Source: Paramacrobiotus metropolitanus (lineage: Eukaryota > Tardigrada > Eutardigrada > Parachela > Macrobiotidae). Taken from it: a stretch of 33,676 nt of DNA. The DNA lies in NCBI RefSeq assembly GCF_019649055.1, contig NW_026570592.1, forward strand, positions 1 through 33,676, written 5' to 3'. The notes below the pieces were generated by a model. That model saw only the letters and a list, made by a program, of their open reading frames with translations. It was not told the DNA's origin and made no database searches. The first letter of the stretch is position 1; each line of letters begins with the position of its first letter. Below are positions 8,791 through 31,675 of the stretch, piece after piece. Both the position numbers and the translations under genes were made by a program.

Positions 8791-9402
8791 CTGCACTTGC
8801 CACATTTAAACGCCACGCCCCGTCCATCCTCAGATAGTGTATCATCTGACTGAGAACCGTGACAAACCGCAGGTTGCACCGGCTCTCAACTTGCTTGAGC
8901 AGGAACGCCGAGTCGGACGCCTCCAGAGTCCAGTAGCCGTTGGGCACGCTACACGTCTGCATGACGAAATGGCCACCTGAACAAGTCCCGACCTGGCTGT
9001 TTGTCCCCCGGCATCGCGAATCTGATTGGTGGGAAGCAGTTCGTGACGTCACTGCCCGTCCACCAGCACTTTTACCAGCGCCATCTCATGCCGCCCGTCG
9101 AACTGCGGAATCAGCATTTTTCCGGGGGACCATGTCCAGTGAGAACCGTCATGCAGTAGCACCTCCACAGCAGCTCCCTCGATAGGCTTGATGGATCGCT
9201 GGCGGGAGCAGTCCCAGATCTTCCCGTATTCCACAAGCATCGCCTGTTGTCTTGGGCATCCGAAGTCGTCTAGCAGACGGGGGGAAGCGCTGTCGGTACC
9301 TTCCTGGCCGACCACGTAGCCAAGCAGCAACCGACCGTCAATCTCAACATCCACGGTGTTCCATGGGCACAACGATCATCCAGTGTCTTCGTAGAAGCGC
9401 AT
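8791..9402 (-). pseudogene. Copy D: Tudor-F-box family, exon 1 only (truncated, inverted)
   Basis: Read on the minus strand, the ATG at 9402-9400 opens with MRFYEDTG, as in copies A-C, then meets TGA at 9378-9376 where the others have CGA (Arg). Beyond it the exon continues (PWNTVDVEIDGRL...), keeping the landmarks VEYGKIWDC, HWTWSPGKMLIP and VESRCNLRFV. A frameshift near 9050 separates the two halves. The 3' end is diverged and has no GTAAGT-type donor, and exons 2 and 3 are absent. It is therefore a dead fragment of a family whose exon 1 encodes two Tudor/Agenet-like domains. Its 5' flank also matches those of A-C, so it arose by duplication of genomic DNA rather than by retroposition. Confidence 0.8.
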
Positions 9403-9960
9403 TCTTCTTAGATGTCAGTTTGAGGCGACGGATAATTGGCCGTGTAGGAAAGCGACTGACAACGCTAAATTAATTCCGTTGCACTAAAAAACTGCGAAGG
9501 ACCAAGGACTAAGGTACAGTATAAACAAGCTTTTATAAAGAACAAATAAAATGCCGGGCAAGTAACCAACGATAGATTCGCGTAGAGAGATGTTTATTAA
9601 GGAGGTAGCTAGAGACAGTAATTTTTTCTTCCTGCTGTTCGCTGAAGATTTCAAGCCTGGCGCAGACTGAATGACCTCCATCGCATGACCGTTATCAGCA
9701 ACCTAATCCGGATTCTGCTCCATCTTTTGCTGTTGTAAACCATCGGGTTCAAAGGATTTGCCTTGTCGCTATTGCTTTTGTCCCGGATTTGTTGTTACGC
9801 TGATCTCTTACATATCGGTTTGCTGTCTAAAGAACCGACTTTCGCAAGACCCTTAAAAACAGGGTCGTGCGTGTAGTGAGAAGAATGCTGACAACGGCTT
9901 GCCGCAAAAACCTAGCTTTGAAAAATTTCGTTTTAAGCGAACCCACGACAGCTGCGCTTT
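9403..9960 (-). repeat. Duplicated 5' flank of copy D
   Basis: Read in reverse this matches the sequence upstream of copies A, B and C. Shared landmarks are AATCCGGATTAGGTTG near 9700, AACCAGATGGTTTACA in diverged form near 9735-9755, and the ACAAATCCGGG block near 9785. This marks a segmental duplication and would include any promoter. No gene lies here. Confidence 0.7.
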
Positions 9961-10010: not shown

Positions 10011-10178
10011 CTAAGCAGGGCGCCCTCCGAAGGAAACCGAGAAACGGCTGAAAAAGGCGCCGATGGAGAAATCGAACCCCGGTTACGTCGTAAGATCCGC
10101 GAAGGCAGTACCACTGCACCACGGCGCAATACGTTGAAAATACTTGTAAGACTTTGTCGCTGTACATGAGCCGGTTCT
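10011..10178 (-). mobile_element. SINE-1, tRNA-derived, minus orientation
   Basis: Read on the minus strand it has three parts. First is a leader of about 50 bases, GGCTCATGTACAGCGACAAA and onward. Second is a tRNA-like domain with an A-box-like TGGTGCAGTGGTACTG and a B-box-like GGTTCGATTTC. Third is a tail containing GCCGTTTCTCGGTTTCC and ending near GCGCCCTGCTTAG. The same three-part organisation occurs at 14795-14966 and, split, at 22491-24326. The tRNA-like part cannot fold as a normal tRNA because the anticodon loop is too long, which supports a SINE over a tRNA gene. Confidence 0.75.
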
Positions 10179-10473
10179 TTACAATGATGTTGCGTGTTTG
10201 CGCATGACGGATTTTATTGTTTAATTGCAATTTGTTCAACTGTTTGTGTGCATTAGAGCGAACGAGCACGAGTTATGGCTTTGGCCGTAACGCTTGACAA
10301 TCTAAGAATTGTTATGATGTTTAATATTCTCGAGAAGGCTACTGAACTTTCTTTCAGTAGATAGGTGTTATTCTGGTGTATGTGATGCCGATCATTTCAG
10401 CGACAGTCTGTTATTTCCTGTTGCATGTCATCTCATTGGGACTTGTGCTTGTCGTGTGGTTAAAGTTATCGAA
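10179..10473. other. Intergenic stretch, nothing recognised
   Basis: There is no coding signal and no repeat I can match elsewhere in the window. Confidence 0.4.
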
Positions 10474-11299: not shown

Positions 11300-12005
11300 G
11301 GAACGGCACAACCAGGTACAACACAATGAGACAGCACAATAAGAACAGCACAATAAGAACAACACAAGGGGACACACAACCAGTCGAACAACTGTCAGGT
11401 TTCAACACAATACAGGAACAACTGACCAAAACAACACAGCCGGAACAACCCCAATAGAACAAACAACTAAGAACAACACAATAAGAACAACAGAACAACT
11501 GTCAGGAACAACACAATCAGGAACAACTGACCAAGACAACACAACAGGAACAACACAGCCAGAACAACTGTCAGGAACAACCTGACAAAGACAACACAAG
11601 CCAGAACAACACAATAAAGAACAACACAACCGGAACAACACAGCCAGAACAACACAGCTTGAGAACAACTGTCAGGAACAACTGGGAACAACACAATGAA
11701 CAACACAGCCAGGAACAACACAATGGGGAACAACACCAGAACAACACAACCAGGAACAAGCACAGCGGAACAACACAACCAGGAACAGCATGCAATGGAA
11801 CAACACAATGGGAACAGCACAGCCGAAGAACAACACAATAGGAACAACACAACCGGAACAACACAACCGGGAACAGCACAATGGGAACAACACAGGAACA
11901 ACTGGCCGAACAACACCGGGAACAGCACAGCCAGAACAACAGCCGGGAACAAGCACAGCCGAACAGCACAGCCAGAACAGCACAGCCGGGAACGGCACAG
12001 CCGTC
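11300..12005. repeat. GGAACAACACA minisatellite
   Basis: About 700 bases are built from variants of GGAACAACACA, AACAACACAAC and GGAACAGCACAGCC, with units of roughly 9 to 13 bases. The plus strand is almost free of T for long stretches, a marked strand asymmetry. Frames on both strands stay open (Gln/Asn/Thr-rich on plus, Cys/Val/Leu-rich on minus), but only as a result of the repeat, so none is called a gene. Units become richer in GCACAGCC towards 12000, then the array dissolves. Confidence 0.9.
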
Positions 12006-14794: not shown

Positions 14795-14966
14795 CAGCAG
14801 GGCGCAATCCGAGGGAAACCGAGAAACGGCTAAAAAGGCGCCGATAGGGGAATCGAATCCCGGCTACTTCATTAGATCCGCGTAGGCAGTACCATTGCAC
14901 CGCGGCGCAATACGTTGAAATCATTTGAAAGATTTTGTCGCTGTACGTGAGCCGCTTCTCTCCTCA
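14795..14966 (-). mobile_element. SINE-2, tRNA-derived, minus orientation
   Basis: It has the same leader, tRNA-like domain and tail as SINE-1. Here the B box is canonical (GATTCGATTCCCC context) and the tail reads GCCGTTTCTCGGTTTCCCTC. Copy C has CATTCGGAGTAACTGCC at the matching place without the insert, so this is a discrete insertion. GGTG at both edges (about 14788 and 14969) may be a short target duplication. Confidence 0.8.
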
Positions 14967-15651
14967 CTGGTGTAACTGCTTGCTGCTTTCCCGCCATTTG
15001 CGGAATGGCGCAAAACCGCAGCTGCGTGACGACGAAACCGATAATCTTCGATATCCGCGCTGGAGGTTTACGCCTTTCTCATCTGGAATTTTAGGGACAA
15101 CATGCGCAGAGCCGGTAACTGCGAGAAAGTATCGCTTTCGATAGTACGAAATGTTGAATTCCAAAAAACAACCACCCTATGTCAGCATACATCTCACTAC
15201 ACGCACGGACCCGTTTTCACGGGCCATTCGAAAGTACGGTTTCGCCGACAGAAGACCGTTGTTTGTATAAAAGAACAGCGTAACAACAAATCCGGGTCAG
15301 AAGCAACAGCTGACAAGGCAAATCCTTTGAACCAGATGGTTTACAATAGCTCGACTAGGACACAAGAAAATCCGGATTAGGTTGTCGCTAGCGGTCATGC
15401 GTAGAGGTCATTTACTTTGCGCCAAGCTTAAATCAACAGCGATCAGTAGAAGCAGCAAATTACCGTCAGTTGCTACAAGTATCTCCATTGTAAACGCCTC
15501 TCTGCGCGAATCTATAGCTGGTTATTTGATTGATGGGAGTTCTCTTGCAAGCTTGTTTATCTTAATCCAACGCTATTAAATAACCTACTGTTGTCAATCA
15601 CTTTCACACACATTTCATTACCCGCCGCCTCAAAACAGACCGCAAAGAAGA
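14967..15651 (+). repeat. Proximal 5' flank of copy A
   Basis: It is shared with the flanks of B, C and, inverted, D. Landmarks are CTTTCCCGCCATTTGCGGAA, AACCAGATGGTTTACAATAG, AATCCGGATTAGGTTG, TCTGCGCGAATCTAT and an ATCACTTTC block just before the start codon. Conservation across four copies makes it the likeliest place for promoter and 5' untranslated sequence, but I cannot point to a transcription start. A TATAAAAG at 15266 is not conserved in B or C. Confidence 0.6.
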
Positions 15652-16263
15652 ATGCTCTTCTACGAAGATACTGGACGATCGCTGTACGCATGGAACGCTG
15701 TGAACGTAGAGATTGACGGTCGGCTGCAGCACGGCCACGTGGTCGGCCTGGAAGAGGCCGAGAGCGCTCCCACGCGTCTGCTGGTCGATTTTGGATGCCC
15801 GACAGAACAAACGGTGTCGGTGGAGTACGGGAAGATCTGGGACTGCTCCAGCCATCGACCCGCCAACCTTAACGAGGGAGCCGGTGTGGAAGTGCTGCTG
15901 CGTGACGGCCCGCACTGGACATGGTATCCCGGAAAAATGCTGATTCCGCACTTTGACGAGCTGTACGAGATGGTGCTGGTGGAGGTGATGGTGGACGGGC
16001 AGCGTCGTCGCGAACTGCTTCCCACCAATCAGATTCGCGATGCTTGGGGAGAAACAGACAGGTCGAAACTGCTTGGGCCTGGCCATTTCATTATGCAGGC
16101 GGATGATACGCCCAGTGGCTTCTGGTTTACGCCGCCGTCTGACCCGGTATTCCTGTGCAAACAAGTTGAGAGCCGGTGCAACCTCCGATTTGTCGCGGTT
16201 CTCAGTGATACGGTGCACTATCTGCGGAGGCACGGGGAGTGGTCTTTAAGTGGCCAGGCTCTG

Positions 16264-17670
16264 GTAAGACATGGACCAGTAGTTAATCGACCGGAGCGCA
16301 GCGAAGGTCCTCTAATTCAGACAAAATTAAAAAGGTGCTGTCTGTCTGTCCATTACGGAAGTAAGCAATGACGTCATACAAGGAAGTAAATGTCGTCATA
16401 TAAGGAAGTAAAGAAAACTATGTCATATAAGGGAGCCGGGAATGACTTCATATAGGGAAGTAAAAATGGTTTTCAGAGAAAGGTCACCTCAAAGGCTCAA
16501 AGGAGCACCAGCCGTTGTAAGGTCACCGTAAAATTTAAGATTTGCAGCAAACATTTCTTTATTAGCCCTGTTATCTGCCTTCTGAAAGGTTTAATTGATT
16601 GATTGATTGATTTAATTTCGAGTAGCCAAGCCCGTAAACGGGCACTCTCACATATCCTTATCCGTTGAAGAACATCAAATATGCTAAGGCTAGTCAAGTC
16701 ACCACAACTCGTTAAACACCAGTAATACGTACGCCAGAGAAGCAAAAACACGTCACAGAACTGCTGTAGGCTAATACGGGCACAAAACCACAGAACAACA
16801 AGGTCAGTATCACTCTAGGTATATCGCATCCGTATCAAAGTTGAGTCGAAGTTGAGGCCCCTTCGTACGTCCAGGTACGGAATCGAAGTGGTTGGTAGAT
16901 CCACGTAGAATCCGTATTGACCACAGGCATCGAGAAAACGTACACGCCACTCCGTACGGTCAGCGCTGGTGCCGACTAACCACTTCGCACACAGCCTTGC
17001 GGGCCATGCACTCGCAGCCTGAACTCAGAGTGGTCACCCATCCAAATCCAAACCGCGCTCGATGTAGGCTATCTTTCAAAATCCGAAGATCCATCCATTT
17101 AGCTACACGGAGTGTGACTAAATGGTTTGACACGGGTCTGGCACTGGAGTTGCCGAGAAATACTTAATTCAAGGCAGACATAACTGGTGCTGTTTAACTT
17201 TACTTTGGTGGTATATGACGTTGGCGAAGCCCTTTGTTTATGTTAAGGTTGATCTCAAAAACCGTTTCAGTCAGTGAAACAGCAAGCAGATATATTTTTC
17301 TTTTGGAATTCAAAAATCAGTCTTCAGCTCTCGATAAGAAGAATACTTATTGCTACTCCGACAACAATCTCCCTTTTAATTTTTCAGTGCAAACCCTCTG
17401 TATAGCTTCTACACTCCACGATTAATGCCCCAAACTTCGATCCCTCTCTGAGTAAGTTTTGGAATACATAGTTTTGGCAGGATTACGCCATATTGACGCT
17501 TGTGGCAGACAGATAACCGATTTCATAGGTGTAACACTTAAGTAAGCGACTAAGCTGCGCTCCGGTCTGCCTATGCACGTCAAAGTGCATTTTCCTAGTT
17601 ATTATTAGTATTGTGATGCTTCCACTGGTTGCCGTACTTATTGACGTCCTGCTCTCATTCCGCACCATAG
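16264..17670 (+). other. Enlarged intron 1 of copy A
   Basis: The first dozen and last roughly 45 bases match the 81-bp intron of copy C (the end shares GTACTTATTGA-GTCCT). The intervening 1.3 kb is extra. It contains the 25-bp-type repeats at 16351-16466, a GATT tetranucleotide run near 16590-16610 and otherwise unrecognised sequence. The borders of the insert are near 16275 and 17625. No terminal repeats or coding region were found. Confidence 0.6.
16351..16466 (+). repeat. Short tandem repeat, unit AAGGAAGTAA..GTCATAT
   Basis: GGAAGTAA and GTCATATAAGG recur about four times at spacings of roughly 22 to 27 bases, with the last units diverged (GGGAGCCGGG in place of GGAAGTAA). It is not present in the intron of copy C. 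Confidence 0.7.
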
Positions 17671-18837
17671 GAGACCATCTTCGAGAACGAGAGGGACAGG
17701 CATCATTTTGGCGGGAAAATTGAATTCCTTACAGAAAACGAAGAGCTGGATTTTGAGCGGAAGCATAGGTTGTCGTTAAGCCAATTGAATGTCGGAGAAA
17801 AAGACGATTTTTGGCTGCCGTTGGAAGTGCTGAAGGAGATCTTGCACTAACTGGACACCACCGATCGCGTGCGCTGCCGGCGCACCTGTCCACTGTGGGC
17901 AGACATTCTCACGGCGCCGGACATGTGCAGCGATGTAATTCTATCGCGGCCGCAGTACAGCTTCTGGGATAACTACCTCCTGTACGCTGGCCTCGCCAAG
18001 CACGTCACACCCGCCACACGCACCATCTGCATCCGCGAAGCGGCATGTATTCTAATGACGTGTTCGATGCTGTGCAGCTTCTCTTGCAGGACGCCGACAT
18101 CCTCCTGCACCGCTGCATTGTGCACCGGCGATCGCTTACTTACAGCGAGTCCACATTTACTCAATGGAAATTGGCCTTTTTTACCGACAGAATTACAGAT
18201 GCACGGTTCAGGCTAGAGTCGTGCTGGGGTCGTGTGATTTTCAAAGATCTCCTCGTCGTCGTGTACAACAAGTGGGAGATGCCCTTCTTAGAGTTCCGCG
18301 TTCCCCTGATCGTCTTCACCCGGGGACACCGTGACGAGGCGGGCATCGTGGACCTATTCGAGAAGCATTTGTATTGCTAGGGGCCGCCCGTGGATGTGCA
18401 GCGGATTGCGCATTGCATGGCCGACCTGATTGACAGCGAAGCGAAAGCCCGACAAGTGGAGAAGGTAATGCTACAACCATCATAAACAGTGCCAAAACTC
18501 GCACTGCCGAGAATTTGCTTGTTGGTTGTTCACCGGTACAGTAATGTGCTTAATCTGCTGATCGATTCCGCAGATTCTACGCGTGTACCAAGCCAGCGAT
18601 CCGCGTCCGTCGGCCCATTATCGGGGCCGCCGTTGGTCCTTGTACAATATGGCCAGCGTGGACGTCGGCAAGCTGAATAAATTCTGCCTGGCTGCCTTAG
18701 CTCACTGCGTGAAGGACTGGAGTCCGGGGTACGCATCCCAAGATGATAATGAGCACACTGAGCAATCCAGTGACTCCGAATCCGAAGACGAGGAGGAAGA
18801 GGATGAACACGATAACGAAGTGGCAGACTGGATTTAG

Positions 18838-19420
18838 CAAACAAATGTCAGTTTTCGAAGGCGATTATTTTGTGAAGTGTTAATCTCGTATCAGGAAGTA
18901 TATGTTTTGTAATTTGATCTGATTGGGTGCGGTTTCTTTTATCAGGGTTTGTGGTGTGTTAAGAAAACTGAATTGCAGTAGGATTTACAAATGCAATGGC
19001 CAAAGAACAAACGAGATATAGATAACCAATGAACTTCGTAAATGACATCCACACACGCTGCATGTTATCGCAGTGATGTTTCAAAAGTAGTCGATCAAAC
19101 TATGGATTTGCTACGAGATTATCAACAGTGGTTCTGTCATTATATCGTAAGCTGCCACATTGACGATACAATGTCCGGTGTATTTCCTTCCCCACGTAAC
19201 ATCCTCTGTATCAATTCCCATTTGCACCGTCTCCATGTCCTAACGCGGATCGCGTGTTGTTTCCTCGAATCACGGTGTCCGGTTACATACCACACTTACA
19301 TAATACACGTACTCAAAATCACTTTCGCGTGCGAAGATATCGTTAGCATCAATTTGCTACGACTGACGAGTATGCCGGATTTCCTGAATTGTTTTTTGTG
19401 AATGGTTGTGACCTTTGCAC
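18838..19420 (+). repeat. Duplicated 3' flank of copy A
   Basis: It matches the region after copy B (27745-28350) through TTAATCTCGTATCAGGAAGT, AACTGAATTGCAGTAGGATT, CTTCCCCACGTAACA and TGACCTTTGCAC. A 119-codon open frame at 19042-19401 lies in this flank. It is not conserved as a frame in B, so I do not call it a gene. I see no clear AATAAA. Confidence 0.7.
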
Positions 19421-22296: not shown

Positions 22297-22500
22297 TTAA
22301 AATGAAAATCTTTTAAACATTAAAAACGCATCAAAATCGTTATTGTCCTTCGTAATCTTCAGACGTACGTTCAGTACAATCACCTGCCCCCGCTGATCGG
22401 TCCAAGTGGCGGTCGTAGACCAAGGTACAGCCCAATTGGAAAGCGGTGATGGACCGCCAGAATAAGCAAGAACAGAAGTTGCAACATCTTGTGAAGCGAG
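22297..22500 (-). CDS. Possible exon of an unknown gene, cut by SINE-3
   Basis: The minus-strand frame reads through VLAYSGGPSPLSNWAVPWST and RGQVIVLNVRLKITKDNNDF to a stop at 22297. Its composition is protein-like. Upstream of about 22500 the frame enters the leader of SINE-3, so the original 5' part has been displaced or lost. No family is recognised. It may be a fragment of a host gene or an old element. Confidence 0.3.
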   Translation of the reverse strand, partial: LASQDVATSVLAYSGGPSPLSNWAVPWSTTATWTDQRGQVIVLNVRLKITKDNNDFDAFLMFKRFSF

Positions 22501-22611
22501 AAGCGGCTCATATACAGCGACAAAGTCTTTCAAGGATTTTCAACACTTTGCGTCGTGGTGCAGTGGTACTGCCTACGCGGATCTAACGACGTAGCCGGGG
22601 TTCGATTCCCC

Positions 22612-22942
22612 TGTGAGGAGGATTGGCCTCCCCGTACGCCCGCACTGGTGCGGGTGCTAAGTTGTTTTGCTGTATTTTGATGTTGAATTTCTTCATCAAC
22701 CAGATCTTCAATCTGGTAGATTCTTCAGTTGCTAGCCATCGTCGTCTGAATAACTTGCTGGTCTTTTAGCCCCGCAGCATTCTGCTGCGGGAGCTTCTGT
22801 AGTGCTATATGAATGGGATATGAAAGTGTGCAGTTGATCGTCGGGTGTCTTGCATTTCCGCATAGCTCGTAGTAAACAGCACTGCTCACTCTGCAGGATA
22901 GATTCCGTTTCTGTCTCTGTCCGTGGATTCTTACTAGATCCA
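22612..22942 (+). repeat. 5' LTR of the TRIM-like element (331 bp)
   Basis: It starts TG and ends CA, and contains small hairpins (CCCGCACTGGTGCGGG; ACCAGATCTTCAATCTGGT; CCCGCAGCATTCTGCTGCGGG). No clear TATA box or AATAAA is seen. Confidence 0.85.
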
Positions 22943-22950
22943 CCATCATA

Positions 22951-22960
22951 TGGTAGCAGA
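22951..22960 (+). other. Primer-binding site for initiator tRNA-Met
   Basis: TGGTAGCAGA is complementary to the last ten bases (TCTGCTACCA) of eukaryotic initiator tRNA-Met, and it lies eight bases inside the 5' LTR, where reverse transcription of LTR elements is primed. The match weakens after ten bases. Confidence 0.75.
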
Positions 22961-22994
22961 TCGTGTCGTTTATCCATTGGGACCATTTTTAATG

Positions 22995-23106
22995 GTTTAA
23001 GCGGTTATAAGGATACCGCAGCAGCAGCAGCAAAAGGGAACGGCTATACGGATGCCGTCATCGCGAAAAGAAGATGGAACGGTTATAAGGATACCGTCAC
23101 AGCGAT
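22995..23106 (+). repeat. Short repeats inside the TRIM-like element
   Basis: GCGGTTATAAGGATACCG, ACGGCTATACGGATGCCG and ACGGTTATAAGGATACCG occur in succession, separated by a CAG-rich and a purine-rich spacer. They may form alternative hairpins. No protein role is evident. Confidence 0.65.
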
Positions 23107-23269
23107 TTTCACCAGTAACGGACTGGTGTACCGTGGATATCGCACAACAAGAATGTCAGCAGCCAGCCAGCGACGACTACGCCAACTCCAGTCCACAGCA
23201 GCTCAAGGACTGCCATCCACTGAAGCCCACGTGAACTCGCCACTAAAGACGATGCAATGAGCTGCTCCG

Positions 23270-23452
23270 CAGGGTCACCAGTGTCATTTTGCCCCAAACC
23301 CCTGCCCGATTTTGCTGGGAGCACGACCTTTCCTGGACGGATGCAGCGGAATTTCCCCACCGAAGAAGCGTATTTTGCGTGTTTGCAGGGTCACCAGTGT
23401 TCAAATGCCCCAAACCCCTGCCCGATTTTACTCAGAATGTGACCTTTCCCGA
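23270..23452 (+). repeat. 116-bp-period duplication inside the TRIM-like element
   Basis: CAGGGTCACCAGTGT...GCCCCAAACCCCTGCCCGA...GACCTTTCC appears at 23270-23335 and again at 23386-23452. The two copies differ at several bases. It is a partial tandem duplication, possibly a structured packaging or leader region, but that is a guess. Confidence 0.8.
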
Positions 23453-23919
23453 CTGAAGAAAGAATGATGTCCCTAGTTCCGGGTTAAACCGTAGATATCG
23501 TCGCAGCCAGTGCGTTGACCCAAACAAGGTTAAAGAGGTCAGAGTGGACTGGATCCAAGCCGAACCGAAGCGAACCGTGAACCGATCCGAAGTGAAGCGT
23601 ACCGTAAACCGATGTGAAGCACGCCGTATACGACGTCTTTTCAGTACCGCAGACACCGGTGACGTCAGCGGATACAGAAACGAAACGAATCCGTAGCGAA
23701 GGTGCGAAAACAGTGAAACGAAAGTGTATGTGTCAGTTTTTCCAGTACCGCAGGCACGGGGCCGTGTCTGCAGTGTGAAGGGCATCGGCTATGTGGACTG
23801 GTGAGCGGAGGTTTACAGCCCCAGCGACCACCCAGGGCTTCAACCCGGGAAGACGTGGAGGGGAGTTCGCGACGCCGCGCGATACGCTCGGAGGACCTCA
23901 CGGGTTCCACCCGCAGGCA

Positions 23920-24268
23920 TGTGAGGAGGAGTGGCCTCCCCGTACGCCCGCACTGGTGCGGGTGCTAGGTTGTTTTGCTGTATTTTGATGTTGAATTTCT
24001 TCATCTACCAGATCTTCAATCTGGTAGATTCTTCAGTTGCTAGCCATCGTCGTCTGAATAACTTGCTGGTCTTTTAGCCCCGCAGCATTCTGCTGCGGAA
24101 GCTTCTGTAGTGCTATATGAATGGGATATGAAAGTGTGCAATTGATTGTCGGGTGTCTTGCGTTTTCGCATAGCTCGTAGTAAACAACACTGCTCACTCT
24201 GCAGGATAAATTCCGTTTCTGTCTCTGTCCGTGGATTCTTACTAGATCTACCATTCTTACTAGATCCA
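23920..24268 (+). repeat. 3' LTR of the TRIM-like element (349 bp)
   Basis: It matches the 5' LTR, with about ten single-base differences by eye. The last 18 bases (ATTCTTACTAGATCCA context) are duplicated in tandem, making this LTR longer. It is followed by CCCC and the rest of SINE-3. Confidence 0.85.
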
Positions 24269-24326
24269 CCCCTATCGGCGCATTTTTCGGCCGTTTCTCG
24301 GTTTCCCTCGGACTGCGCCTGCTTAG

Positions 24327-24880
24327 AATCTAATCGACTTTCTCTCACCCGTGGCAACTGAGAAACTCAAAAATTCCGCGGGGGAACGTCACTTTTAGCG
24401 CAGAGCTCGAGATCGAAACTTTTGTGGAACGTACTCCACCGGAATGACAGAGCCTTCTTTGACCATATCCACAAAAAAACAGGAGAACATCTCCTCCTCT
24501 CCGTGACCCTACTAAATAAATCTTTGTCGACTTTACTGTAAGTACAACATGTTAGCATGAGTGAAGTACAACATTTTTCCCCTTAGGCGCACATGCTTTG
24601 CTTTGTTAGCTGTCCCATTCCAAATGAAGTCGTCCTTATCTACCTATGGCACGGTTAGCACCTGTACGCATCAAATTTTTCTGGGCATGTGTTCCACTCG
24701 GATGCACAGTATCCCACAGTCCTATACGTATTCCTCATGTGCCCGCCAGAATTAATCAGTTTTTAATCACTACCGTATCCCAACGTATCTCTGCGGTATC
24801 CTTTATGCATCCCGAATGTATCCCACCATGAAACAAAAGTGAAAGAAAGATACTCGGCGGATACACGGGTCATCCAAAAT
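24327..24880. other. Intergenic stretch with an unclassified dispersed repeat
   Basis: No gene is supported. The part at 24640-24830 resembles 21440-21620 on the same strand. It ends at the edge of the duplicated flank of copy B. Confidence 0.45.
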
Positions 24881-25313
24881 TCGGTTTCGCAGACAGAAAA
24901 CCGCTGTGTTAGAGAACAGCGTAACAACAAATCCGGGTTAGAAGCAATAGCTGAAAAGGCGAATCCTTCGAACCAGATGGTTTACAATAGTTGACAACAG
25001 CGCGACAAGAACACCAGAGAATCCGGATTAGGTTGTTGGTAGGGTTCATGCGATAGAGGTCATTCAGTCTGCGCCAGGCTTAAAATCTTCAGCGATCAGT
25101 AGAAGAATAAAATCACCCTCTGACCTCTGTTGATAACTCCAGAAGAAACATCTCTACGCGAATCTATCGTTGATTACTTCATCGGCAAAGTTCTTTGTGC
25201 AAGCTTGTTTCCCTTATGCCAGGTTGTTTGACAGTGGAACCGAATAAACCTACTGTTTTGTGAGTCACTTTCACACACAGCTCTTCATCCAACTCAGAAA
25301 TAAGAAATAAAAA
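24881..25313 (+). repeat. 5' flank of copy B
   Basis: It matches the flanks of A and C from TTCGGTTTCGCAGACAGAAA onward (AACCAGATGGTTTACAATAG, AATCCGGATTAGGTTG, GCGAATCTATCGTT). Homology starts later than in A or C, so the duplicated segment of B is shorter at this end. Confidence 0.75.
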
Positions 25314-25966
25314 ATGCGCTTCTACGAAGACACTGGACGATCGGTATATGCATGGAACGCTGTGAACGTGGAGATTGATGGTCGGTTGCGACACGGCTAC
25401 GTGGTCGCCTTGGAGAGACCGAGAGCGGTTCCCTTGGTCTGATGGTGGATTTCGGATGCCCGACACCGAAGCCGCGGAATATGGGAAGATCTGGGGCTGC
25501 TCCAGTAATCCATCCAGCACTCCTGTCGAGGGAGCTGCTGTGGAGGTGCTACTGCATGACGGCCTGCACTGGACCTGCTATCCCGGAAAAATGCTGGTTC
25601 CGCACTTTGACGAGCTGCATGAGATGGCGGTGGTAAAATTTCTGGTGGACGGGCAGTGGCGTCACGAACTGCTTCCCACCAATCAGGTCCGCGATGCCTG
25701 GGGAGAAACAGCCAGGTCGAGATTTGTTCAGGTGGGCCATTTCGTCATTCAGACGTGTAGCGCGCCCAACGGCTACTGGACTACGGAGCCGTCCGGCACG
25801 GCATTCCTGCTCACACAAGTGGAGAGCCGGTGCAACCTGCGATTTGTCACAGGTCTCTGTCAGACGATGCACTATCTGCGGAGGCACGGGGTCAAGCTTT
25901 TAAGTGACAAGGATTTGGCAAGTCATGATTCTCGTACAACTTTCACTGTTTGGCATAGTATACTTG

Positions 25967-26130
25967 GGCCTCGTCCCGAATTCGAAGCGAATCTCGTTGC
26001 GATACAGCAACTCCGCCTCGCGAGGTGGCTTCGCGTAGCGTATCTGTAGGCGTGGCCACTGCATACAGCTACCTCGTGAGGTTGAGCAACCGTACGATAG
26101 CGAGATTCGCTTCGAATTCGGGACAAGGCC
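25967..26130. mobile_element. 164-bp palindromic MITE in intron 1 of copy B
   Basis: The ends are near-perfect inverted repeats of about 30 bases. GGCCTCGTCCCGAATTCGAA on the left pairs with the reverse complement of TTCGAATTCGGGACAAGGCC on the right, and weaker complementarity continues inwards (CCTCGCGAGG against CCTCGTGAGG). The matching intron of copy C lacks it. A target duplication is not clear. It looks like a miniature inverted-repeat element. Confidence 0.8.
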
Positions 26131-26334
26131 TTATTCTGTTACGTATTTGCTAACTCTGATTCTCATACCACAGGCGACCATCTTCGAGGACCTGAGGAAG
26201 AAGCATGATTTTGGCTGGCAAATTGAATTTTTTACTGAAAACGAAGAGCTGGATGTTGATCGGAAGTGGAAGATGCCGTTGAGCTTGTTGAATGTCGGTG
26301 AAGAAGGTGGTTGGGCGTTGCCGGTTGAAGTGCT

Positions 26335-26730
26335 GTAACGTAGGTTCTTACTAACTGCAACTCAAAGCTGGCTAGATGGTATAAGTCTTTATTGATCTAA
26401 AACTGACTAAAACTATCAACGATTTTTAGTATGGAAAACATAGGACTTATATATGAGAACAGTTGGACAAGACAACGTCCAGTTGCACAACGTTATTGGC
26501 GTATAGTGAATAGAAGTTATGACATTCAAACGGATGCACTTCCGTGTTGCGTAACGTGGCTTTGTTGGCCAGTGCGTTGTACAGCAACGCACTGTAGTTC
26601 GAACGCCAACTGGCACTTATGCATTGTGTAACAACTCTGTTGGCCAGTGAGTTGTGTAAAAACTCACTGTTACTGTTATGCCAACGACCAGTACGTACGT
26701 TGTGCATGTACACATGATAAATCATGTTAC
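26335..26730. mobile_element. 396-bp insertion in the F-box exon of copy B
   Basis: AGTGCT stands immediately on both sides (26329-26334 and 26731-26736), and copies A and C run straight through this place. The insert begins GTAACGTAGG and ends CATGTTAC, so its ends are short imperfect inverted repeats starting GTAAC. The inside has imperfect inverted and direct repeats (GTTGGCCAGTGCGTTGTACA and GTTGGCCAGTGAGTTGTGTA) and no coding region. I infer a small non-autonomous DNA transposon of unknown superfamily with a 6-bp target duplication. Confidence 0.7.
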
Positions 26731-27744
26731 AGTGCTGAAAAAAGATCTTGCACTCACTGGACAGCGTCGACCGCGTGCGCTGCAGTCGCACCTGTCATTT
26801 GTGGGCGGACATTCTTATTAAGCCGGAAATGTGCAGCGAAGTGGTTCTATCCCGGTCGCAATTCAGCTTCTGGGATAAGTACCTCTTTTACGCTAGCCTC
26901 ACCAGACTCGTCACTCCCGCAACACGCACCATCTGCATCGGCGAAAGCAGCGCGTATTGCGATGAAATGTTCAAGGTTATGAAGCGTCTCCTGCAGGACG
27001 CCGGCATCCACCTGGAACGCTGCATCGTGCACCGGCGATCGGTGTCGTACAGAGAGTCAAGATTTACTCGATGGAAATTCGCGCTCTTAACCGAGGAAAT
27101 CACGGATCCCCTGTCCAGACTGGGATCGTGCTGCTATCGTTTGATTTTCAAAGATTTCGATGCCGTCGTGGTAAGCAAGTGGGCGGTGCCCCTCTTCGAT
27201 TACCGCGTTCCCCTCGGCGTCTCTACTAGGGGACATGATGACGCCGAGATCGTGGACTTGTTGGAGAAGCATCTGCGTTGTCGGGAGCTGCTGGCGGATG
27301 TGCAGCGCATTGCCAACTGCATGGCTAAACTGATTGACAGCGAAGATAAGGCCCTGCAAGTGAAGAAGGTAATTAATACCCTGTAATGACACTCCGTCGT
27401 ATACTGCTTTAAAACTCGCGATGGGAATTTGCCTAGTGGTTGATTTCCGGCACAGTAATATTCTTAATCTGGCTATCGATTCCACAGATTTTGCGGGTGT
27501 ACCAAGCCAGCGATCCGCGTCCTTGGGCGCATTACCGTGGATATCGGTGGTCGCTGTACAATATGGCCAGTGTGGCAGGCTGAATAAATTCTGCCAGTGC
27601 GCCTTGTCGCACTGCATGCGAGACTGGGGTTACGCGTTCGAAGATGACAATGAGTCTGAGCAATCCACCGACGATGACTCCGAGAACGAAGAAGAAGACT
27701 GCGACGACGACGAACAAGACGAAGAGGAAGACGAGGATGAGTAG

Positions 27745-28350
27745 AACGAATTCAAATTTCCGAAGGCTGTCATTTTGTATCTATACAGTGTTAATCTCGT
27801 ATGAGGAAGTTGATTTTGTACTTAATTCTGATCAAAAACGGTATTTTACTTGTTTTTTGGGTCTTAGTGAAACTGAACTGTAGTGGCACTACCGTAGCAA
27901 GAGCGAAAAGAGACATAGCCGGCCGCAATGGAAATGGCCGAAGTGATCGGTAGCCGACGACCCTATAAAACTTGGTAGATGACACCCTTTCACGCGGGCA
28001 CCGAATCCTCGTTACCGTTAGTGCTTCCTGTGGTCTTATCTTATTTCTGCAAGGTGGATTTCAACAGTCGATAAAACTATGGATTCGCTACACAAGTGCT
28101 GTACGCTTGATTGTTACACGCCGCAACATTGGCGATAGACCTTCCAGTTTGATTCCTTCCCCACGTAACACCCTCCACATCCACGCGTCACGCGTGTGGT
28201 TGCCGCACGTCACGGTGTCCCGTTGTGTACAAGCACATAATTCTGTCAAATAATTGCGCATGCGAACAACTCACTGACGTTTGATGCTACGAGTAAGGCA
28301 AATATCCAAGAAATGTTTTCGTGGTAGCTTGGTAGTTTTGACCTTTGCAC
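27745..28350 (+). repeat. Duplicated 3' flank of copy B
   Basis: It matches the flank of A (18838-19420) throughout and the flank of C at its start (TTAATCTCGTATGAGGAAGT, AACTGAACTGTAGTGGCA, CACCGAATCCTCGTTACC). No gene is seen. The 260 bases after it, to 28613, are unique and unrecognised. Confidence 0.75.
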
Positions 28351-28613
28351 GTCCCAGGGTCTTTCTCGACAGATCTTTAAAGAATTTCTTTCTTTAAAGA
28401 ATTTAAAAAAAGTCAGCGGCCCAAAACTTCCCGTTGTTTCGAACGCCAGCTGTTGAACTATGTAACGGTCTGCCAGCCCGCAATACTTTCCTAACTTCCG
28501 GTTTTCCCGTTCTGCCGCTGCACTCCCCGGCACGCTAGACGTCTTGGTGATGAACGTTTGGGCTAGTATCGCACTGTACGTACAAGTACACTTTGGAGTA
28601 GTACATTTTAACG

Positions 28614-29524
28614 GACATTGTTGACAACAAGTTTAACAACTTGGCCGCTTGGTTCCGTTCGTTCGTTCAGCGAGACCTCCAGCTCGTCAAAGTTAAGGGA
28701 ATCTGGTACAAAAGGGAAAGGATCTGGAAATCGGTTGGAATTTGGCGCATACGCGTCATTTGTTTGCTACGCGTAGCTGACGTAACGATCTTCAAACGAA
28801 TAGAGTTGTCCCAACTCAGCCATTCGGAGTAACTGCCAGCCGCTTTCCCGCCATTTGCGGAATGGCGCAAAGTCACAGCTGCAGTGAAGACGAAACAGAT
28901 CATCCTTGATATCTACGCTGAAGGTTAACGCCCTCCTTATCGGGAATTCCAGTGACAACACGCGCAGAGCCGGTAATTGCGAAAAAGTATCGCTTTCGAT
29001 AAAACGAATTGTTGAATTCCGAAAAGCAACCAACCTATGGCAGCGTGCATATCGCCCCGTTTTCACCGGCCATCCGAGAGCCGGTTTCCCAGACAGAAGA
29101 CCGCTGTGTAAAAGAGCAGCATAACAGCAAATCCGGGTCAGAAGCAAAAGCTGACAAGTCAAATCTTCTTTGAACTTGAACCAGATGGTTTACAATAGCG
29201 CGACAAGGACAGAAGAGAATCCGGATTAGGTTGTTGCTAGCGGTCATGCGAAAGAGGTCATTCAGTCTGCTCCAGGGTCAAAATCTTCAGCGATGAGTAG
29301 AAGGAAAAAATTACCGTCTGTTGACACCTTCATAATATCCAAATCTTTACGCGAATCTATCGTTAATTAGTTGATCGTCAAAGTTCTCCGTGCAACGGTG
29401 CAAACTCGTTTACTCGTATCCTATTCCCCGCTGTTCGACAGTATGATTTAATAACCTACTGTTGTTAATCACTTTCCCACATATAGCTCATTATCCGCCA
29501 CCTCAAAACAGACAGAAAAGAAGA
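28614..29524 (+). repeat. 5' flank of copy C
   Basis: This is the most complete version of the family's upstream region. It matches 13692-13872, 14769-14794 and 14967-15651 of segment A in one uninterrupted run, and so serves as the empty site for the LINE and SINE-2 insertions. Landmarks include AACTTGGCCGCTTGGTTC, CTTTCCCGCCATTTGCGGAA and AATCCGGATTAGGTTG. Confidence 0.8.
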
Positions 29525-31447
29525 ATGTTCTTCTACGAAGATACTGGACGAACGCTGTACGCATGGAACGCTGTGGACGTGGAGATTGACGGTTGGTTAC
29601 AGCACGGCCACGTGGTCGGCCTGGACGAGACCGAGAGCGCTTCCCCCCGTCTGCTGGTGGATTTCGGATGGCCGACAGAACAGCCGGTGCCGGTGGAATA
29701 CGGGAAGATCTGGGACTGCTCCAGCCATCGACCCGGCAACCTTAGCGAGGGTGCTGCTGTGGAAGTGCTGCTGTGTGACGGCCCATACTGGACATGGTAT
29801 CCGGGCAAAATTACGATTGCGCGCTTTGACGAGCTGTACGGGATGGCGCTGGTGGAGGTGACGGTGGACGGGGAGCGGCTTCTCGAACTGCTGCCCACCA
29901 ATCAGATTCGCGACGCCGGGGGACAAACAGCCAGGTCGGGACTCCTCGAGGCGGGCCATTTCGTCATGCAGGCTAATGACTTGCCCAACGGTTTCTGGTT
30001 TACGGAGCCCTCTGACCCGGTATTTCTGCGCGAACAAGTCGAGAGTCGGTGCAACCTGTTATTTGTCGCGGATTTCGGTCAGACGGTGCACTATTTGCGG
30101 AGGCATAAGGATGCGCTTTTAAGCGGCCAGGTTCTGGTAAGTCATCATCGTTATTTCTGTACAGCATTCACTATTTGGCGTACTTATTGAGGTCCTACTT
30201 TTGTTCTCGTGCCGTAGGAGACCATCTTCGAGAACGAGAGGGACAAGCATCTGTTTGCCTGGGGTATTGAATTTTTTACTGCAAACGAACAGCTGCATTT
30301 CGAGCTTTTTACTGAAAACGAAGAGCTGGATTTTGAGCGGAATCGTGAGTTGTCGTTAAGCCAGCTGAAAGTCATAGAAGAAGAGGATTTTTGGCTGCCG
30401 TTGGAAGTTCTGAAGGAGATCTTCCACTCACTGGACACCATCGACCGCGTGCGCTGTCGCCTCACCTGCCCTCTGTGGGCAGATATTCTCACTGCGCCGG
30501 GCATGTGCAGCGATGTAATTCTATCGCGGCCGCAGTACAGCTTCTGGGATAACTATCTCCTGTACGCTGGCCTCGCCAAGCACGTCACACGCGCCACTCG
30601 CACCATCTGTATCCGCGAAAGCGGCATGCATACCAATGCGATCTTCGATGCTATGCAGCATCTCCTGCAGGACGCCGGCATCCGCCTGGACCGTTGCATC
30701 GTGCACGGGCGATAGCTGACGTATAGCGAGTCAACATTTACGCGATGGAAACTGGCCTTCTTTGCCGACAAAATCACGGAGCCTCGGTTCAGGCTGGAGT
30801 CGTGCTGCGCTCGTCTGATTTTCAAAGACTTTGTTGTCGTCGTGCTAAACAAGCGGGCGGTGCTAAACAAGTGGGAACTCTTTGAGTGCCGCGTTCCACT
30901 GATGGTCTTCACCCGGGGGCACGTCGATGTAGCGGACATTGTGGACTTGTTGGAGAAGCATCTGCAGTGCGAGGGACCGCCGGTGGATGTGCAACGAATT
31001 GCGCGCTGTCTGGCCGATCAGATTTACAGCGAAGAGCAGGCCAGGGCAGTGAGAAAGGTAAGGTCATGGCATCGTGTAACAGTTCTACAACTCGCCTTCG
31101 CTGTTTCCCTTGTAGTTAGCTTGGTAGTGTTTAATCTGATGCATTAGTGCTTTAACAAGCTTTAATGAGCGATTCTGCAGATTCTACGGGTGTACCAAGC
31201 CAGCGATCCGCGTCCGTCAGCGCATTACCGTGGACGTCGGTGGTCGCTGTACAATATGGCCGGCGTGGACGTCGGCAGGCTGAACAAATTTTGTCTGGCT
31301 GCCTTATCGCACTGCATGAACGACTGGGGTCACGCATCCGAACTTGACAATGAGCACGCTGAGCAATCCAGCGAATCTGAGGAGGAGGAGGACGAAGAAA
31401 ACCAAAACGAAGACGAAGAAGGCGAAGAGGATGACGAGGAGGAGTAA
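29525..31447 (+). pseudogene. Copy C: Tudor/Agenet-like plus F-box protein, one nonsense codon
   Basis: Exons are 29525-30136, 30218-31057 and 31181-31447, with introns of 81 and 123 bp, donors GTAAGT and GTAAGG, and acceptors GTGCCGTAG and GATTCTGCAG, all in phase 0. They would give 572 residues. Residues about 13-135 form two Tudor/Agenet-like units (VEIDGWLQHGHVVGL, VEYGKIWDC; YWTWYPGKITIA, ELLPTNQIRD). The F-box is at about 261-300 (FWLPLEVLKEIFHSLDTIDR, CPLWADIL), followed by a long conserved region and an Asp/Glu-rich tail. The only lesion is TAG at 30713-30715 (codon 370), where B has TCG. Translation to that point would keep the Tudor and F-box parts, so a shortened protein is conceivable. 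Two small in-frame tandem duplications are unique to this copy (30269-30334 and 30842-30877). A Tudor reader joined to an SCF-type F-box is the inferred role. Confidence 0.85.
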
Positions 31448-31675
31448 AAACGTTCAGATTTCCCAACTTTGTATAGTTTAAAATGTAAATCTTGTATCAG
31501 TAAGCTAATTTTGTACTTGCATGCGACTTTTTAATTTGGTTGCATTTGTCTTATCATACAACTGAATTGTAGTGGCATTTACAACTGCATTGACCAAGAG
31601 CCAAAGAGACACAGACCATCACTAAATCGGTAGAATGCATCTACGAACGCCGGCACCGAGTCCTCGTTACCATTA
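31448..31675 (+). repeat. Duplicated 3' flank of copy C
   Basis: It matches the flanks of A and B through AACTGAATTGTAGTGGCATT and CACCGAGTCCTCGTTACCAT. Homology ends near 31675, sooner than in A and B. Confidence 0.7.

Follow-up and report, generated by a model that had tools for sequence, protein, structure and literature searches.

The window, a 33,676-nucleotide stretch of contig NW_026570592.1 of the tardigrade Paramacrobiotus metropolitanus, contains a non-coding LTR element of 1,657 bp (22612-24268) nested in a tRNA-derived SINE, which confirms what was first observed in this stretch. It belongs to a family of small LTR elements (1.3-1.7 kb), non-coding and non-autonomous, which very probably use the machinery of a large Ty3/gypsy element. 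Read directly from the sequence are two LTRs, a primer-binding site, 4-bp target duplications, solo LTRs, five groups of copies, and many copies with identical LTRs.

A Non-coding LTR Element Nested in a SINE

The window copy and its target consist of the following features.

22491-22611, plus strand: 5′ part of the SINE target, from alignment to two SINE copies in the window; its B-box, GGTTCGATTCC, is located at the site (22599-22609)
22608-22611, strand not given: target-site duplication CCCC, left copy
22612-22950, plus strand: 5′ LTR, 339 bp, TGTGAGG...CCACCATCATA, with the boundary taken from other group A copies
22951-22965, plus strand: primer-binding site TGGTAGCAGATCGTG, matching the complement of the initiator tRNA-Met 3′ end
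23001-23097, plus strand: array of three hairpins (23001-23019, 23040-23058, 23079-23097) with 5-bp stems and loops TATAAGGAT or TATACGGAT
23110-23128, plus strand: possible hairpin CACCAGT-AACGG-ACTGGTG, resembling a site near the primer site of the large element L104 (26-bp match, 88%, E 6.6e-4)
23294-23523, plus strand: 230-bp module of two imperfect repeats, common to groups A, B, C, D, and F
23904-23919, plus strand: 16 bases preceding the 3′ LTR, GTTCCACCCGCAGGCA, without a purine tract
23920-24268, plus strand: 3′ LTR, 349 bp, rearranged at its 3′ end from about 24236 to 24268
24269-24326, plus strand: CCCC, right copy (24269-24272), and 3′ part of the SINE

The original prediction gave the span as 22491-24326, which covers the feature but is the SINE plus the element; the element alone occupies 22612-24268. 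The predicted CCCC is found on both sides, at 22608-22611 and 24269-24272, and the SINE halves do rejoin: with one CCCC removed from the pair, they align across the joint, unbroken, with two minus-strand SINE copies elsewhere in the window (10011-10193 and 14796-14967) that represent the empty site. The direct repeats are equally real, with 96.7% identity over 335 aligned bases between 22612-22942 and 23920-24268. The 331-bp length and the terminal CA assigned to them were not correct, since the true LTR is 339 bp and ends in CATCATA. In other group A copies, the LTR extends 8 bp further (...CCACCATCATA), and the window 5′ LTR has the same CCACCATCATA end at 22950. The window 3′ LTR, unlike other group A copies, terminates in ...TAGATCTACCATTCTTACTAGATCCA ahead of CCCC. 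This altered end can be read, from the sequence, as an 18-bp tandem duplication (TTCTTACTAGATCYACCA) combined with an 8-bp loss between two ACC repeats next to the CCCC, and it is the damage to the 3′ LTR end that accounts for both the shorter length and a supposed eight-base spacer before the primer site.

Over their full lengths (22612-22950 and 23920-24268), the window LTRs differ by 13 mismatches and ten gap columns and are 96.2% identical without gaps. To call the insertion "not very old" was fair, but most of the copies measured are younger. The lack of coding capacity holds as well: the longest ATG frame is 117 aa, and neither of the two frames searched in the window element has a Pfam match at E 0.01.

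Elsewhere in the window, diverged copies (73%-80%) of a gene-like unit lie at 8796-9893, 14969-18923, and 24864-31518; they include one frame with an F-box domain and form a local family with inverted members. Diverged repeats at 11300-12000 leave long frames on both strands.

The Primer-Binding Site Adjoins the LTR Directly

The ten bases TGGTAGCAGA, proposed as a primer site for initiator tRNA-Met, are located at 22951-22960. The type of site is supported, but the spacer is of 0 bases rather than eight, and in other group A copies too the site adjoins the LTR with 0 bases between. Nine other group A copies have TGGTAGCAGAGCGTG at this place in the alignment versus TGGTAGCAGATCGTG in the window. 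The assignment presumes the general sequence of the initiator tRNA-Met 3′ end; a pattern search of the genome did not find a host initiator tRNA gene.

At 33 loci examined, the relevant place was readable in 30, and TGGTAGCAG lies directly 3′ of the 5′ LTR end in 27 of these. The other three are L010 and L057, where GGTAGCAGAG is found with one or two bases missing at the joint between LTR and primer site, and L016, where the 5′ LTR end was not recognized. The sequence ATGGTAGCAGAKC has 299 matches in the genome versus four for the reversed control. Forty loci, drawn from the top of the 299 with known copies skipped, contain 41 sites beside several LTR types, two of which are frequent.

Five Groups of Copies

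The genome searched comprises 169,799,020 bases in 533 contigs. A pattern for the nematode spliced leader gave 0 hits, and a hit to the lipocalin family resembles an ordinary fatty-acid-binding protein, which does not settle the kind of organism. A 301-base query (62 SINE bases and most of the LTR) gave at least 41 matches, with 40 of 451 first-look candidates scored and one of the 41 matching in its SINE part only. An internal-region query gave at least 40 matches (40 scored of 168 candidates), and both copy counts are lower bounds. Further copies of the LTR had been suggested as a check, and the element is indeed multicopy, with the same anatomy recurring; the many matches and this recurrence together argue that the window element is not a product of chance.

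Assigned by their LTRs, the copies form five related groups, A-D and F, of 1.28-1.72 kb, accompanied by solo LTRs. Group A contains the window copy and L003-L011 (1.64-1.72 kb). Group B contains L012-L019, of about 1.51 kb if intact, and the first ~220 bases of its LTR match group A at 76%-79%, the remainder being without a match. Group C (L020-L022 and L052-L058, three of them incomplete) measures about 1.44 kb if intact, group D (L059-L062) about 1.43 kb, and group F is represented by a single full copy of 1.28 kb (L105). Among the best 40 of 285 candidates for the group C LTR are five same-strand pairs within 10 kb, all five spaced 1.17-1.19 kb. In one group C copy (L053:665-2639; 1,975 bp in total, insert included), the 3′ LTR apparently carries an insert of ~0.5 kb, while GTAG is duplicated without change on the outer sides.

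A further LTR type, E, was found only as solo LTRs (L027, L033, L043, and L044). Its first part is A-like and its 3′ part is nearer to that of the large element L104, a composition that suggests exchange between element families. The U3/R boundary may fall at LTR position 220-275, the region from which the LTR types diverge.

The longest ATG frame per element is 100-314 aa in 25 elements. Of six copies of the 230-bp module that were tested, four are interrupted by stops in all frames; the remaining two, L020 and L105, have one open reverse frame each. An RNA structure in the module was considered but not supported: with 15 of 33 modules, z was -1.9, six of 100 column shuffles scored as low or lower, and the covariation term was not above that of shuffled alignments.

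Insertion Signature and LTR Divergence

Exact 4-bp target duplications of differing sequence flank 25 of 26 copies with two LTRs and 26 of 29 solo LTRs, which makes 51 of the 55 insertions scored, where about 0.2 of 55 would be expected by chance. None is found at L004, L033, L044, and L045, and seven loci with unrecognized ends (L016-L019, L052, L056, and L058) had been set aside ahead of the count. The duplications have no AT bias. That the copies are segmental or tandem repeats multiplied without retrotransposition, the circumstance that would have spoken against the original prediction, is consistent with the repeated LTR and with nothing more. It is refuted by the duplications and by the empty-site SINE homologues that align unbroken across the joint, and its probability is practically nil.

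Among 26 LTR pairs, 16 are free of mismatches, with gap columns in three of the 16; the least similar pairs are those of L018 (86.5%) and L010 (92.8%). L018 is among the 26 pairs and outside the 55 insertions; for L053 the reverse applies. The diverged LTRs of these two copies, together with the 3.8% LTR mismatches and damaged 3′ end of the window copy, would fit dead relics of the large element that were deleted internally and became immobile once short. Such an origin is very improbable in view of the mismatch-free pairs, the near-uniform lengths within each group, and the single layout kept in five groups, all of which indicate amplification in the short form.

The window copy and L014, a group B copy in the opposite orientation, are inserted in the same register within a tRNA-like B-box, with the duplication starting at the last two bases of GGTTCGATTCC (window 22599-22611; L014 flanks). 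A B-box lies within 60 bp of two of 55 sites, with ~0.13 expected from a control that holds a single B-box in 48 kb; this hints, weakly, that tRNA-like targets may be preferred. No tRNA was detected by ARAGORN at the joined empty sites of the 55 insertions or in control flanks.

At the LTR hairpins of three solo LTRs, short stretches match in the inverted orientation as well, over 21-23 bp around LTR position 160-180 (L033, L040) and over 18 bp around 26-45 (L029, L040). In all three it is as if the hairpin loop had been flipped.

A Ty3/gypsy Element as Likely Partner of Group A

The original prediction also suggested a search for a larger LTR element with the same ends. A likely partner has the LTR 3′ end in common with group A. 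The end of the group A LTR, together with the primer site, is matched exactly at ten places in the genome: nine known small copies, including that of the window, and an inverted LTR at C25:252087. L010, with its differing joint, is absent from these ten. When one mismatch was allowed, 11 matches were obtained versus two in the reversed control; the additional one, at C11:874621, has no similarity to group A and was discarded. None of these matches belongs to a coding element bounded on both sides by group A LTRs.

Two 10-kb loci, L103 and L104, were taken from one site each of the two frequent primer-site classes and extended by the next 7 kb (L106 and L107, respectively). Both L103/L106 and L104/L107 contain open frames with aspartic protease, reverse transcriptase (RT), RNase H, and integrase domains (Pfam). 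Along L103 then L106, and L104 then L107, the order is protease, RT, RNase H, and then integrase, which is the domain order of Ty3/gypsy elements. No 3′ LTR was seen within about 17 kb of either copy, and no pairing of integrase matches with primer sites was evident by eye when 150 of 1,154 integrase candidates were set against 100 of 299 sites.

The partner LTR resembles the group A LTR in its last part only, where ~100 bp at the LTR 3′ end of group A and L103 are alike (77%). Besides this stretch of the LTR, the primer site and a hairpin array (described below) are common to group A and the large element. From these sequence features, an L103-type Ty3/gypsy element is likely to be the partner of group A, an argument that holds for group A alone, as the copies of groups B, C, D, and F that were scanned are without the array.

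After the integrase of the large element, several sequences resemble the complement of the primer site (L106:4507-4904, with three of them, and L108:829-925). These are possibly sites of mispriming.

A Hairpin Array Common to Group A and the Large Element

The array unit found in L103 and in group A has the form ACGGC-TATAAGGAT-GCCGT, for example; units in L104 have loops such as TAATAAGAT, and a further stem pair is altered there on both sides. The pattern VYGGYTATANGGATRCCRB has 378 matches in the genome and 0 in the reversed control; it replaced an earlier pattern that did not admit G at the second pair and that matched 13 times both in the genome and in the control. The 100 matches listed of the 378 form 33 arrays. 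Among these, eight are situated 48-57 bp from a primer site, all of them in copies of group A, another 23 are located downstream of a primer site at a distance of 3.2-5.6 kb, and two are without a primer site among the 100 listed of 299 sites. No array was found in the copies of groups B, C, D, and F that were scanned.

The array is a candidate cis signal of group A, for packaging or dimerization. It could equally be a mere leftover of a protein-coding repeat of the partner with no role in the small element, and we regard the chances of this as about even. The L103 array lies inside an open frame and encodes a peptide repeat, the scanned copies of the other four groups have no such array, and the diversity within group A does not single out the stems: at 0.017, hairpin columns are not better conserved than the upstream sequence (also 0.017), with spacers at 0.027 and downstream sequence at 0.083. 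Pointing the other way is the closing pair, which in the 100 matches listed of 378 is C-G in 80, T-A in 19, C-A in one, and T-G in 0, as is the two-sided change of a further pair in L104. Related copies inflate such counts, and the independent events behind them are perhaps few. The outer stem pair is paired (G-T counted) in 77 and unpaired in 23 of the 100 matches listed. In a shuffle test of stem pairs, 67 of 110 were paired and 0 of 20,000 shuffles scored as high, a result given little weight because unrelated loop matches and related copies were included.

An Apparent Chimera of Small and Large Elements

On the minus strand of contig C25, from 259994 to 251760, the group A copy L004 is followed by large-element sequence, from after the protease through the integrase, and then by an inverted primer site and group A LTR. 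This LTR, at C25:252087, is 95.6% identical to that of L005 and has the primer site; L004 has the opposite orientation, and its own flanks are unmatched (GAGC and GATA). Read on the reverse strand after the inverted primer site, the integrase region is 86.8% identical to L106 over 2 kb; beyond it, 3.6 kb match L103 with 89% identity, and the large-element sequence ends at the L004 3′ LTR. The inner joint is within ~20 bp of collinearity with one of the sequences in L106 that resemble the primer-site complement; ~85 bases beside the joint were left unaligned by BLAST. The outer flanks read ...TTTGAGC and TGAGCGG..., with TGAGC on either side.

The simplest account of this arrangement is one insertion of a molecule formed when both RNAs were copied together, the LTR-plus-primer-site DNA of the small element having primed on the partner. 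An assembly error or a later rearrangement is also possible; the locus sits, by eye, in a ~21-bp tandem repeat, and the outer duplication is of 5 bp, or of 4 bp and one base, versus 4 bp elsewhere.

The locus also bears on whether a special partner exists. The copies may be ordinary TRIM-like elements mobilized by whatever LTR element is active, as would suit small non-coding elements with LTRs, a primer site, and 4-bp duplications; with 299 such primer sites in the genome, several helpers are possible, and the array is absent from the scanned copies of groups B, C, D, and F. Such an account has to contend with three features common to group A and one large family and with a locus at which the two are joined, and we consider it possible, if somewhat unlikely.

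With a Ty3/gypsy partner, RNA of the small element would be transcribed from the 5′ LTR, packaged in particles of the large element, and copied there from an initiator tRNA-Met primer, and the resulting DNA would be inserted by the large element's integrase. Group A itself looks like a deletion derivative with another U3, because its array lies 48-57 bp from the primer site versus 3.2-5.6 kb. It seems to derive from an L103-type element that lost the 3-5.5 kb separating primer site and array, along with almost all of the sequence beyond the array, the U3 being different. A more speculative proposal, and in our estimate a rather doubtful one, is that the array (TATANGGAT) is a portable packaging or dimerization signal of the large family, located there within a coding region kilobases away from the primer site, that group A has kept along with LTRs and primer site. 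The C25 locus would then be a fossil of co-copying of both RNAs in one particle, where LTR-plus-primer-site DNA of the small element primed on an internal primer-site complement of the partner.

Relation to Known Small LTR Elements

We class the family as a small non-autonomous LTR retroelement, TRIM-like and probably of Ty3/gypsy type. The designation as a TRIM element stands in so far as the elements are non-autonomous and multicopy, with empty sites, two LTRs in direct orientation, no coding capacity (the two window frames being free of Pfam matches), a primer site after the 5′ LTR (27 of 30 readable loci), and target duplications within the 4-6 bp range (51 of 55). The strict definition does not apply, because the copies exceed the 1-kb limit and groups A-D have no purine tract. 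TRIMs are described as shorter than 1,000 bp in the accessible parts of two reports (PMC4717578; PMC10886601), the second of which has Helenus TRIMs reaching 1,263 bp; intact copies here measure 1,280-1,718 bp. In place of such a tract, the 3′ LTR is preceded by GTTCCACCCGCAGGCA in A and by TTGGACAGTACAGGGA in C; group F alone, with its one copy L105, has GCAAAAGGGG before the 3′ LTR.

The following comparisons refer to the accessible portions of the sources. PbTRIM of the harvester ant is likewise an animal non-coding element with two LTRs, an adjoining primer site, 4-bp duplications, and many solo LTRs (159 versus 67 complete copies; PMC3532108). It differs in its leucine-tRNA primer site, AT-rich targets, and 15-nt purine tract, and no partner was found according to that portion of the report (PMC3532108), whereas in the present family the primer site is of initiator-Met type, the duplications show no AT bias, groups A-D are devoid of a purine tract, and group A has a candidate partner. 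Ta-TRIM of taeniid tapeworms is also an animal non-coding LTR element with 4-5 bp duplications (PMC4558846), for which a putative partner has been proposed (PMC6934838); its internal part is ~590 bp (PMC4558846), in contrast to 0.79-1.06 kb here with a module shared between groups. The bivalve biv-TRIM resembles the present family as an animal TRIM with solo repeats but has, in the portion of the report at hand, no typical primer site and no identified partner (PMC6934838).

Helenus, another animal element with 4-bp duplications, is thought to depend on Gypsy elements (PMC10886601). The tRNA-like sequence that characterizes the Helenus LTR was not detected in the window by ARAGORN or by Rfam at gathering thresholds, and the hammerhead ribozyme of plant retrozyme LTRs has no Rfam match in the window or in five copies. 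With E up to 1, Rfam searches of L005, L013, L020, L059, and L044 returned one sub-threshold match, to Giardia U6, in L044. In plants, larger Copia or Gypsy elements were paired by sequence with 11 of 289 TRIM subfamilies, with LTR matches of 79%-98% (PMC4717578), compared with ~100 bp at the LTR 3′ end at 77% here.

Outside plants, TRIMs are recorded from hymenopterans, tapeworms, and bivalves, with Helenus and Ajax in further animals (PMC10886601). Curated tardigrade repeats include DIRS, Gypsy, Ngaro, and Pao LTR elements (PMC11071193, in its accessible part), and our literature search found, among the papers listed, no report of such small LTR elements in tardigrades. The present species would join the few animals with such elements. 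The partner of a small non-coding LTR element is rarely known, and putative ones have been proposed for some, including the tapeworm family. In the present case, several features link group A to a single large family, and at one locus both seem to be contained in a single insertion. How small elements are recognized thereby becomes testable, with a defined candidate signal.
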